Assembly (NCBI GenBank): GCA_019509785.1
Contig: JAEKLQ010000052.1
Span: forward strand, 1 to 64,000
Source of the DNA: Fibrobacterota bacterium
Lineage (GTDB): Bacteria; Fibrobacterota; Fibrobacteria; UBA11236
Length of the DNA stretch: 64,000 nt
Direction of reading: 5' to 3'
Shown here: piece after piece, positions 40,041-61,655 of the stretch
Position numbering within the stretch: position 1 is the stretch's first letter
How the letters are laid out: the number at the start of each line of letters is the position of its first letter
The notes under the pieces: generated by a model
What the model saw: the letters and a program-made list of their open reading frames with translations, nothing else
What the model was told of the DNA's origin: nothing
Databases searched by the model: none
Program-made: the position numbers and the translations under genes

Positions 40041-41972
40041 TCAGAATCCCGCTTCCAAACTGAATTGCTGCCCCCCGGCCAGGGGGGCATCCTCCTCAAG
40101 GCCGAACTCGAAGGCGTAGTCGAGGGACAGGCGCATCTTTAGCCCCGCTTCCTTGAGCCCGTCCGTGTCCAGCCCGAAGCCTACGGAAATGGCGCGGACC
40201 GTTTCGCGCCCGAAGGTTTCGTGCAACCCGCCGCGCAAGGCCAGCACGTCCCATAACGTCTCCTCGCCACCCACCCGCAAATGATCCGCCTGATCGGCCC
40301 AGATCCCCTTCTGCCCGTCGAGGAGGAATATCAGGCCGTGATCGGCCCGGTAGGCTGCGCCGACCTTCCATTCGACCGGCAAGATCTCGCCGTAAGATCG
40401 ATCGGTGAAGGTGTTCTGGTGACGCAGGAATCCGAATGCGTCGCGTACGGAAAGGGCGGCCGTGATGCGTTCGCTCAAGGGCGCCTGCACGCCGAAATCC
40501 CATCCCATCCCGTAACTGTGCCCGGTGGAGCGATCCTGCCCGGTTCCGTCCATGCCGGCTTGGGCCAGGTAGAGCTTGGCCTGGGCTCCGGCCTTCACGC
40601 CATCCCACGCCGGCCAGAGCATCCCGAGATCGCAGGCCAGGGTCCCGAACACCGTGGTTTCGTTCGCGAGGCCGTCGCCTTCGTATTGCGCGCCTAGCCC
40701 CTGGTGCCAGCCTCGGAACAACGGGCCCGCGTAAGCGACGAAGAAGGAAGGCGTCCCGTCGGGCAGGCTCCGCTTGGCCATGACCACGTTTTCCCGCTGG
40801 GCCTGGGCCACGCCGGCCGGGTTCATGAGGAGGGAGATCCCGTCCGCGACGGCCGCCACCCCCGCGCCGCCCATGGCGGCGAAGCGCGCGCCGAGGGCGG
40901 GGGAAGCGAAGAACCCGCGTAAGTAGGAAGACGGGCCGGAAGCCGATGCCAAATCGCCCGCGGGCCGGGACGAATTGTCGTCGGCGCCCAGGAGTTGGCC
41001 TTGCGCATACGCCAAAGCCGCGCCGGCCGCGACCAGGCCGGCGCCGGTCCAACCGGTGCGGGCGCGATGGTCGAGGGAATCCTTGGGGTTGAGCCAAGGG
41101 ATGGAGCGCCACGGGCCCGTGGCGAAGAGCGCGCCTTCGATGCTTGGGCCTTCGCGAACTGAAAGGCGATCGGTATCGCGAGCGGAGTCGCGATCGTAAT
41201 CAGGGTTCCGATCGGGATCAGAGTTCCGATCGGGATCGGCCAGGCGCAGTCCCGCTTCCCGCGCGAAAGGGATAAGGCCGCCGGGCACGGCTTCGGACCA
41301 AACTTGCAAGGCGCGGCGGATGACTCCGCCCTGGGCCTGGGCCAGCACCAGCCGCAGGACCCATTGCGAGTCGCGCAAGGCGAGATGGGACGAGAGCACG
41401 AGCGGCACGGGGGCGGAGGCCGCGGCCCGGGCCACGCAGCGCGCCTCGAAGCAGGCGGAGGGAAGGCTTCCGCCGGGCCAGGCTTGCGAGGCCGCCTCTT
41501 GGGTGAGGATGCGAAAACGGCCGGACTCGGCCAGACCCAGGCGCAGGCCCGCGGCGGCTTGGGCCAGGGCGCCGGTATCGAGCCCGGTTACGGCCATCGG
41601 AAGCATGATAAGGCCGGGAGCGGTTCCGGAATCGGCAAATGGTCCGTCGGCGGGGCGGGCTTGTGGATGGGGCGCGACCTTGCGTGCGGAGACCGCGCTG
41701 TCGGCGACGGAGTCGAAGGCGTCGAAGCTTCCGATGTCTGCGCTATCGGACGGCGCGGCCGGGCCTGGCGCTTGGGCCGGGGTCGGGGTCGGGGTACGGG
41801 CGGGGGGCGCGGTTTGAGCCGGGGCCGGACGAGGATCGTCCCAAGCCGCCAGTCGCGGGTCTTCCGCCGCCGACCACCGGGCTTCCGGTTGGGCGAAAGT
41901 GAGGGTCGCGAATACGGAGCAAGCGGCAACGGCCGCGCCGGCCCGGATCGAAATGCCGCTTATCCGGTTCAC
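40041..41972 (-). CDS. PorV/UPF0164-like outer-membrane beta-barrel with N-terminal periplasmic region
   Basis: This 643-aa exported protein has a signal peptide (to about residue 27), a Pro/Ala-rich low-complexity region (45-75), a periplasmic domain (115-240) and an Asp/Arg repeat (DPDRNSDPDRNPDYDRD). The C-terminal half (from about 350) is a beta-barrel beginning GARFAAMGGAGVAAVADG and MNPAGVAQAQ, the signature of PorV-type proteins, and ends in Phe (LEAGF). In T9SS bacteria PorV carries secreted proteins to the attachment complex. It is the last gene of a three-gene operon and overlaps the preceding gene by 4 bases. Confidence 0.8.
   Translation of the reverse strand: MNRISGISIRAGAAVAACSVFATLTFAQPEARWSAAEDPRLAAWDDPRPAPAQTAPPARTPTPTPAQAPGPAAPSDSADIGSFDAFDSVADSAVSARKVAPHPQARPADGPFADSGTAPGLIMLPMAVTGLDTGALAQAAAGLRLGLAESGRFRILTQEAASQAWPGGSLPSACFEARCVARAAASAPVPLVLSSHLALRDSQWVLRLVLAQAQGGVIRRALQVWSEAVPGGLIPFAREAGLRLADPDRNSDPDRNPDYDRDSARDTDRLSVREGPSIEGALFATGPWRSIPWLNPKDSLDHRARTGWTGAGLVAAGAALAYAQGQLLGADDNSSRPAGDLASASGPSSYLRGFFASPALGARFAAMGGAGVAAVADGISLLMNPAGVAQAQRENVVMAKRSLPDGTPSFFVAYAGPLFRGWHQGLGAQYEGDGLANETTVFGTLACDLGMLWPAWDGVKAGAQAKLYLAQAGMDGTGQDRSTGHSYGMGWDFGVQAPLSERITAALSVRDAFGFLRHQNTFTDRSYGEILPVEWKVGAAYRADHGLIFLLDGQKGIWADQADHLRVGGEETLWDVLALRGGLHETFGRETVRAISVGFGLDTDGLKEAGLKMRLSLDYAFEFGLEEDAPLAGGQQFSLEAGF
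41204..41239. repeat. 18-bp tandem repeat in the PorV-like gene
   Basis: Two 18-base units (41204-41221 and 41222-41239) differ at two positions and each contains the palindrome CCGATCGG. They encode the repeated Asp-Pro-Asp-Arg-Asn-Ser type peptide between the periplasmic region and the barrel. The period equals that of the repeats in trpF and the ABC ATPase gene. Confidence 0.75.
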
Positions 41973-55750: not shown

Positions 55751-58663
<2,913 letters not shown>

Positions 58664-59823: not shown

Positions 59824-59849
59824 GACCGGACTAGGTCTTTCCTTCGTTA

Positions 59850-59940
59850 GGGTACAGGGTAAAGGGGACAGGGTAAAAGAAGACGGGGAACCGTCTACTG
59901 CCCTTAACCCTTAACCCTTAACCCTTTACCCTTTACCCTG
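59850..59940. repeat. Telomere-like 7-bp repeat element, copy 2
   Basis: On the left, four 7-base units (GGGTACA, GGGTAAA, GGGGACA, GGGTAAA; 59850-59877) are followed by a perfect hairpin AGACGG-GGAA-CCGTCT (59881-59896), then five complementary-type units (CCCTTAA three times, CCCTTTA twice; 59901-59935) and CCCTG. The units on the two sides can pair imperfectly to form a long cruciform. It has the same plan as the element at 35562-35641 and lies between asd and a small membrane protein gene. Confidence 0.8.
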
Positions 59941-59981
59941 TCTTACTTGTCTCCCCCGACGGGTGATCGTACACTCTCCCC

Positions 59982-60215
59982 ATGTCCGTCATCCTCGGCC
60001 TCCTCATCTTCTGCCTCGGCCTCTATTTCCTCAGCCTGTTCTTCCAGCTCGCGCGGCTCGAGAAAAGCATGACCGAAGCGGTCACCGTGCTCGAGAAGTT
60101 CATGATGGCCAAGTACTCCCTGGGGGACGACGGGAAGACGAAAGCGGAAGCGGCGGCCGCCACGGCGGCGGCGGAAAAGGCGCTGGCCAAAGAAGGCGGC
60201 GCGGCTACTCCGTAA
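59982..60215 (+). CDS. Small single-pass membrane protein
   Basis: This 77-aa protein begins with one hydrophobic helix (ILGLLIFCLGLYFLSLFF) followed by an amphipathic, Ala/Lys/Glu-rich helix without known motifs. There is little ribosome-site support before the ATG, so it is less certain than its neighbours, but codon use and the clear membrane helix suggest a real gene. Confidence 0.5.
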   Translation: MSVILGLLIFCLGLYFLSLFFQLARLEKSMTEAVTVLEKFMMAKYSLGDDGKTKAEAAAATAAAEKALAKEGGAATP

Positions 60216-60350: not shown

Positions 60351-61655
60351 ATGAAGAACCTGCTCACCCAAATCGGCTCCCTGCCGATCCCGCAACTGGC
60401 GCAACGATTCGGGACCCCCGTATTCCTCTACGAGCGCGAAGTGATCGAGAAGCGCATCGCCGAGCTCAAGGCTTTCGAGGTCATCCGCTTCGCCCAGAAG
60501 GCATGCTCCAATATCGCCATCCTGGCGCTCATGAAGAAGAACGGGGTAGCGGTCGATGCGGTCTCCGCCGGAGAAATCTACCGCGCCCTCAAGGTCGGCT
60601 ACACTGGAGGCTCCCAATTAGCGCAATCCGCCGCAGGCGGATTGCAAGGCGCCGCGAATGCGGCGCCCTCCATCGTATTCACCGCCGATCTTTTCGACGA
60701 AGACGCCTTGCGGCTCATCCGCGAGCATAAGATCCCCGTCAACGTGGGTTCGCCGGACATGATCGCGCAATTGGGCCGGGCCTGTCCCGGCGCGGAAGTC
60801 ACCCTGCGCATCAATCCCGGTTTCGGCCATGGGCATTCGCGCAAGGTGAATACCGGCGGCAATTATTCCAAGCACGGGATTTGGCATACCGAAGTGGAAG
60901 AATGCCTGCGCTTGGGCGAAGCCGCCGGCGTCAACATCCACGGGCTCCACATGCATATCGGCTCGGGCAGCGATTACCACCATCTCGCCACCGTATGCGA
61001 TGCCATGGTGAAGACCGCCAAGCGCATGGGCCCGCGTCTCAAGGTCATCAGCGCGGGAGGCGGACTGCCCATCCCTTACCATAAGGACCAGGCCCGCATC
61101 GACATCGCCGCCTACCATGGCCTTTGGGACAAGGCCCGTAAGGCCATCGAACGCGAGATTGGCCACGTCGTTTCCCTGGAAGTGGAGCCCGGGCGTTACC
61201 TGGTGGCGGAGTCGTGCTCGCTGCTGACCCAGATCCGTTCCGTGAAGAACACCGGCGGCAACGTATTCTATCTGGTGGACGCCGGCTTCGACACCCTGAT
61301 CCGGCCCGCCATGTACGGGGCCTACCATGAGATCTCCATCTGCACCGCCGACGGCCGCGTTCCGGAAGTGGCCCAGGACGTCATCGTGGCGGGGCCCCTC
61401 TGCGAATCGGGCGACGTGTTCACCCAGGAAGAAGGCGGCGTCGTCACCACCCGCAAGCTCCCCGAAGCCGCGGTCGGCGATTACCTGATCCTGCACGATG
61501 CCGGCGCTTACGGCGCGGCCATGTCCTCCAATTACAATACGCGCAAGCTGGCCCCCGAAGTCCTGATCCACGGCGATAGCGCCGAAATCATCCGCGAGCG
61601 GCAGACCTTCGAGGCCATCCTCCAGTTCGAACGCATCCCCGCCGGCCTGGCCTAA
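60351..61655 (+). CDS. lysA: Diaminopimelate decarboxylase (E. coli LysA type)
   Basis: This 434-aa PLP enzyme makes L-lysine from meso-diaminopimelate, the last step of the pathway. The PLP lysine is Lys50 in FAQKACSN; INPGFGHGHSRKVNTGG, KHGIWHTE, HMHIGSGSDY, SAGGGLPIPYH, EVEPGRYLVAES and GPLCESGDVFT follow E. coli LysA closely. Compared with it there is an insertion of about 15 residues at 91-106 (LQG-AANAA type, low complexity), encoded by two tandem hairpins at 60623-60667. It lies on the surface loop before the strand IVFTADLF, so activity is probably kept. A terminator follows the gene. Confidence 0.95.
   Translation: MKNLLTQIGSLPIPQLAQRFGTPVFLYEREVIEKRIAELKAFEVIRFAQKACSNIAILALMKKNGVAVDAVSAGEIYRALKVGYTGGSQLAQSAAGGLQGAANAAPSIVFTADLFDEDALRLIREHKIPVNVGSPDMIAQLGRACPGAEVTLRINPGFGHGHSRKVNTGGNYSKHGIWHTEVEECLRLGEAAGVNIHGLHMHIGSGSDYHHLATVCDAMVKTAKRMGPRLKVISAGGGLPIPYHKDQARIDIAAYHGLWDKARKAIEREIGHVVSLEVEPGRYLVAESCSLLTQIRSVKNTGGNVFYLVDAGFDTLIRPAMYGAYHEISICTADGRVPEVAQDVIVAGPLCESGDVFTQEEGGVVTTRKLPEAAVGDYLILHDAGAYGAAMSSNYNTRKLAPEVLIHGDSAEIIRERQTFEAILQFERIPAGLA
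60623..60667. repeat. 45-base double-palindrome insert in lysA
   Basis: Two perfect inverted repeats stand end to end: GCAATCCGCC/GGCGGATTGC (10 bp, loop GCA, 60623-60645) and GGCGCCGC/GCGGCGCC (8 bp, loop GAAT, 60648-60667). Their total span of 45 bases equals the length of the extra 15 codons relative to E. coli LysA. The coincidence suggests a small palindromic element inserted in frame. Confidence 0.7.

Follow-up and report, generated by a model that had tools for sequence, protein, structure and literature searches.

The question raised by this locus is how a housekeeping gene came to carry, in frame, 45 nt of DNA made up of two adjacent perfect hairpins. The gene is lysA, which lies within the 64,000-nucleotide stretch of a Fibrobacterota genome analysed here (hereafter the window), and an earlier, sequence-only reading had proposed that the hairpins are either a mobile element tolerated by the protein, resembling the in-frame palindromic elements of Rickettsia (RPEs), or a product of replication slippage. 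In our judgement the insert probably reflects a single event, confined to this species, in which a surface loop of LysA that naturally varies in length was expanded in frame, and it is probably not a dispersed element. The draft genome comprises 5.4 Mb in 106 contigs; the hairpin census and the ranking of folds were made on a 464-kb sample of it, and the comparison set consisted of five congeners, all of them Fibrobacteres/Fibrobacteria metagenome-assembled genomes.

An expanded loop in LysA

The identity of the host protein is secure: it scores 365 bits against the TIGR01048 equivalog model, for which the cut-off is 298, and its nearest solved structure is that of E. coli LysA (PDB 1knw; also 1ko0). 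As the sequence-only reading had supposed, there are about 15 additional residues relative to the E. coli enzyme, seen as a 15-residue gap at the hairpin site in the alignment with 1knw; four of the five congeners are likewise shorter there by 15 codons (45 nt), and the reading frame runs uninterrupted across the extra codons. The hairpins themselves are exactly as that reading had given them, in sequence and in position (60623-60667), with stems of 10 bp and 8 bp separated by the AA at 60646-60647 and a combined length of 45 nt (Table 1). To equate the insert with the hairpin pair is to rely on a length match (45 nt = 15 codons): the flanking loop codons are unalignable between species, so that the exact breakpoints of the insertion are unplaceable.

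Table 1. Features of lysA and its hairpin-bearing loop, in window coordinates
Feature	Position	Strand	Description	Basis
lysA, diaminopimelate decarboxylase	60351..61655	+	434 aa	TIGR01048 equivalog and best PDB match 1knw/1ko0
Expanded alpha-beta loop, G83 to S107, GYTGGSQLAQSAAGGLQGAANAAPS	60597..60671	+	precedes IVFTAD	congener alignment and structure model
Predicted branched fold, 68 nt	60605..60672	.	outer stem, mini-hairpin, hairpins 1 and 2	
Hairpin 1, GCAATCCGCC-GCA-GGCGGATTGC	60623..60645	.	perfect 10-bp stem, 3-nt loop	read from sequence
Hairpin 2, GGCGCCGC-GAAT-GCGGCGCC	60648..60667	.	perfect 8-bp stem, 4-nt loop	read from sequence

The loop in question, from G83 to S107, has 25 residues in the window protein and 10 in the same four congeners, and across about 90 homologues the segment that starts at G83 and ends before I108 almost always has 6-14 residues, the extremes being the window protein (25) and that of the fifth congener, G001 (21). 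The lysA of G001 is thus only 4 codons shorter than that of the window at this site, owing to an 11-codon insert of its own (on L009). We considered whether the two inserts might be homologous and rejected this, their sequences being dissimilar (p = 0.62); the G001 insert lies in the same loop, has no hairpin and does not fold (z = +0.8). In the lysA tree G001 lies at the base of the genus, while the window sequence groups with G002, and the branch leading to the window's species measures about 0.21 substitutions per site. Given this basal position, the dissimilarity and the lack of a fold in the G001 insert, the most reasonable reading is that one tolerant loop was expanded twice, independently.

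An AlphaFold2 model of the window protein, confident overall (pLDDT 85, pTM 0.87), has a single run of residues with pLDDT below 50, namely 92-103, and this run falls in the loop between the helix at 73-82 and the strand at 107-111. In such barrels, loops after helices sit on the side away from the active site. Together, the variation in loop length among homologues and the predicted structure make it well supported that the insertion site is tolerated by the protein, as had been claimed from the DNA. One could also envision an error of assembly or sequencing, given that the assembly is a draft of 106 contigs and that the species is known here from that one assembly; the insert, however, is an exact multiple of three, introduces no stop and falls precisely within the variable loop, and we regard an artefact as extremely unlikely.

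Strength of the fold and its expectation by chance

The hairpin pair is predicted to be part of a larger branched structure of 68 nt, closed by a 5-bp outer stem (TGGAG/CTCCA, 60605-60609 paired with 60668-60672) that also encloses a 3-bp mini-hairpin at 60610-60622; the outer stem, too, is missing in the relatives aligned. The folding energy of this stretch is low (RNA z = -4.5 against dinucleotide shuffles; DNA z = -4.6), and after correction for GC content the 68-nt fold ranks about 8th among the 23,116 windows ranked in the 464-kb sample. Such a fold, with stems that have remained perfect despite the long lysA branch, would fit a functional RNA or DNA structure kept by selection, such as a translational pause, an mRNA-stability element or an attenuator. 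Against this, the region matches no Rfam family, direct reading of the sequence finds no T-tract 3' of hairpin 2, and the structure is missing in every relative seen, leaving no covariation on which to draw. Moreover, given the encoded peptide, the observed energy is only 2 SD below that of synonymous redraws, and a selected function for the hairpins seems to us highly improbable.

How far chance could produce the pattern depends on which part of it is considered. For one 10-bp hairpin on its own, the expectation is roughly one in every 64 kb. Adjacent pairs with stems of at least 8 bp number two in the 464-kb sample, as against about 0.2 expected by simple density and none in four Markov replicates. 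The second of these pairs, with 8-bp stems (L154:19257-19301, VHLARQMVEVVDFIHQ), lies in a protein-kinase segment and apparently arose by chance; it is outside any apparent insert, and therefore chance pairs do occur in coding DNA. Overlapping hairpins were also seen in a Pro/Ala-rich repeat linker (L138:6894-6940). We considered both as comparables to the lysA pair, and neither looks comparable, the one being in a kinase segment and the other in a repeat linker.

These figures bear on the reading in which the loop simply expanded, through duplication or random indels, and then drifted in a GC-rich, Ala/Gly-coding stretch, the perfect hairpins being coincidental. The independent 11-residue expansion in G001, which has no hairpin, is consistent with such a history, as is the double hairpin in the kinase segment; in addition, the mean energy of synonymous redraws of this peptide, -36 kcal/mol, is already that of a strong fold, and 91 of 3000 (3%) reach the observed energy. 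The stems themselves are harder to obtain in this way: only 6 of 3000 synonymous redraws, and 1 of 3000 codon shuffles, yield a pair of perfect stems of 8 bp or more, and a 10-bp stem inside a lineage-specific insert was equalled by none of 200 random segments. The pattern is unusual, though not extreme for a GC-rich genome, and we hold coincidence to be unlikely while giving it appreciable weight.

Copies of the hairpins and other repeats

The sequence-only reading had suggested searching the genome with each hairpin, and had named a lack of other copies as grounds for abandoning a mobile element; in the 5.4 Mb there are no further copies beyond chance. BLAST of the 91-bp region against the genome returns only the self match. 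At up to 3 mismatches hairpin 1 has two other places, where about two are expected from the frequencies of its arms, and hairpin 2 is near the control level. The 18-base word that spans the hairpin junction, GGCGGATTGCAAGGCGCC, has one other place at 2 mismatches; at up to 3 it has 25 forward and 19 reverse places as compared to 5 in each direction for the reversed control, an excess that probably reflects composition or codon bias. BLAST finds no other copy in the genome, so these places do not include the complete unit.

A search of 168 genomes of the phylum gives five further matches to hairpin 1 at up to 2 mismatches, four of the five within the same family. A reversed-pattern control gives none in the 168 genomes, and is unfair because the reversed arm holds the stop-like TTAG, which is rare in GC-rich coding DNA; set instead against the roughly 1.2 expected from arm frequencies, the four same-family matches, in four other genomes, amount to an enrichment that we judge weak. 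The phylum near-matches all differ from one another, lie in unrelated coding stretches and mostly have partial arms, and hairpin 2 is absent from the flanks shown. Viral contigs contain no exact match to the hairpins, and no transposase of the Y1 REP type (PF01797) was found in the window's own genome.

A spreading hairpin unit, similar in kind to RPEs or double-hairpin elements and able to enter genes in frame, would explain why two adjacent perfect hairpins equal the insert in length, why this arrangement is rare in the genome, and perhaps the near-matches in the four family genomes. It is, however, already largely refuted by its single copy in 5.4 Mb, by near-matches that are close to chance level, differ from one another and are mostly incomplete, by the viral and transposase searches, and by a length far below the approximately 150 bp of RPEs; we therefore regard the mobility once proposed for the hairpins as very unlikely. 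That the lysA pair might be the founding copy, or the last one remaining, of a bacterial double-hairpin mobile element that enters protein genes in frame, its other copies being confined to strains not yet sequenced, we consider exceedingly improbable.

We also considered a more general process, in which insertions in this genus tend to create hairpins. In syntenic genes, 39 inserts 5 or more residues long were compared; three of them, one being the lysA insert, carry a hairpin at p <= 0.05. This is near expectation, and the general process is thus unsupported; that all three belong to the genome of the window is a weak hint only. The lysA insert is an outlier among the 39. Two other in-frame inserts specific to the window, at 58008-58034 and 41204-41229, each hold a 7-bp hairpin (GCGGTCGAAGCGACCGC, p 0.02, and ATCGCGACTCCGCTCGCGAT, p 0.03).

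The genome does contain real dispersed palindrome families, two in number and unrelated to the lysA hairpins. The first has a member at 59840-59985, between asd and the small gene preceding lysA, about 650 bp upstream; its arms are composed of degenerate seven-base units (GGGTAAA/GGGTACA/GGGTTAA) around a spacer of 20-30 nt, and it is spread through the genome as 79 BLAST pieces at about 40 places. The second comprises REPIN-like palindromes, GGCGCGCCATTGGAGCGCC, often in doublets about 90 nt apart (L144:4405-4548 and L146:610-728; also on C21, C25, C27, C38, C40, C53 and C69), for which no Y1/RAYT transposase (PF01797) was found in the genome. With up to 2 substitutions allowed, neither family turned up in about 246 kb of sequence surrounding lysA in the congeners. 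Separately, a tandem repeat of GCTGCTAAAGCAGCTTCG units at L155:10881, itself palindromic, forms the strongest fold for GC content in the 464-kb sample. As repeat biology of this genome, the dispersed families are more promising than the lysA hairpins.

Origin of the insert and comparison with known systems

In the one-off expansion that we favor, the inserted DNA would have arisen recently on the lineage of this species; that it is recent or maintained is suggested by stems that are still perfect despite the lysA branch length. One or more fold-back (template-switch) replication errors would have made these stems: the nascent strand would fold back, copy its own arm and then rejoin the template, and selection would retain only an in-frame, stop-free outcome, the hairpins being taken to have no further function. 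Perfect hairpins are documented products of single template-switch events (PMC8794818), and the 3-nt and 4-nt loops fit fold-back synthesis. One such event gives only a loop and one arm, however, so 45 nt with four arms would need several events or a prior expansion. Neither arm is kept in any of the five aligned congeners and, as no relative retains an ancestral arm, the template-switch steps are not reconstructible and the copying is something that we infer. Of the two origins first proposed, then, a product of replication is the best available reading, with its individual steps left to inference.

The lysA insert is a clear small example of a perfect hairpin entering a housekeeping gene without breaking it, and it appears that this LysA loop has absorbed large insertions more than once within one genus. 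A mobile element, if true, would matter more, but the test for copies was negative. Double-hairpin elements (DHEs) of mitochondrial and other organelle genomes consist of two adjacent short hairpins, occur as dispersed repeats and are thought to be mobile; the lysA insert likewise has two adjacent hairpins with short loops, whereas DHEs are repeated and dispersed in organelle DNA and the lysA pair is a single copy in a bacterial gene. With REPs and REPINs it shares the property of being short, hairpin-forming bacterial DNA, but REPs are many-copy and extragenic, and the lysA pair is single-copy and intragenic, in a genome without a PF01797 match.

Perfect inverted repeats inside protein-coding genes are also found in the mitochondria of Nematomorpha, where they reach 284 bp and encode conserved regions (PMC6649704), while those in lysA are short and in a dispensable loop. 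The likeness to template-switch products, or quasipalindromes, lies in perfect stems and short loops, as one replication error can create (PMC8794818); proof of such an origin needs the parental arm in an ancestor, and no lysA congener keeps either arm. RPEs are about 150 bp long, fall into ten families and account for 44 insertions in R. conorii (PMC10969869), whereas the lysA pair is 45 nt (68 nt with the outer stem) in one genomic copy, and has no further copies with which to share the conserved encoded peptide that marks RPEs. It is thus because of copy number that the lysA insert belongs with neither RPEs nor DHEs. RPEs are nonetheless the nearest described bacterial case, in that both are palindromic DNA read in frame, within a housekeeping gene and at a site that the protein tolerates.
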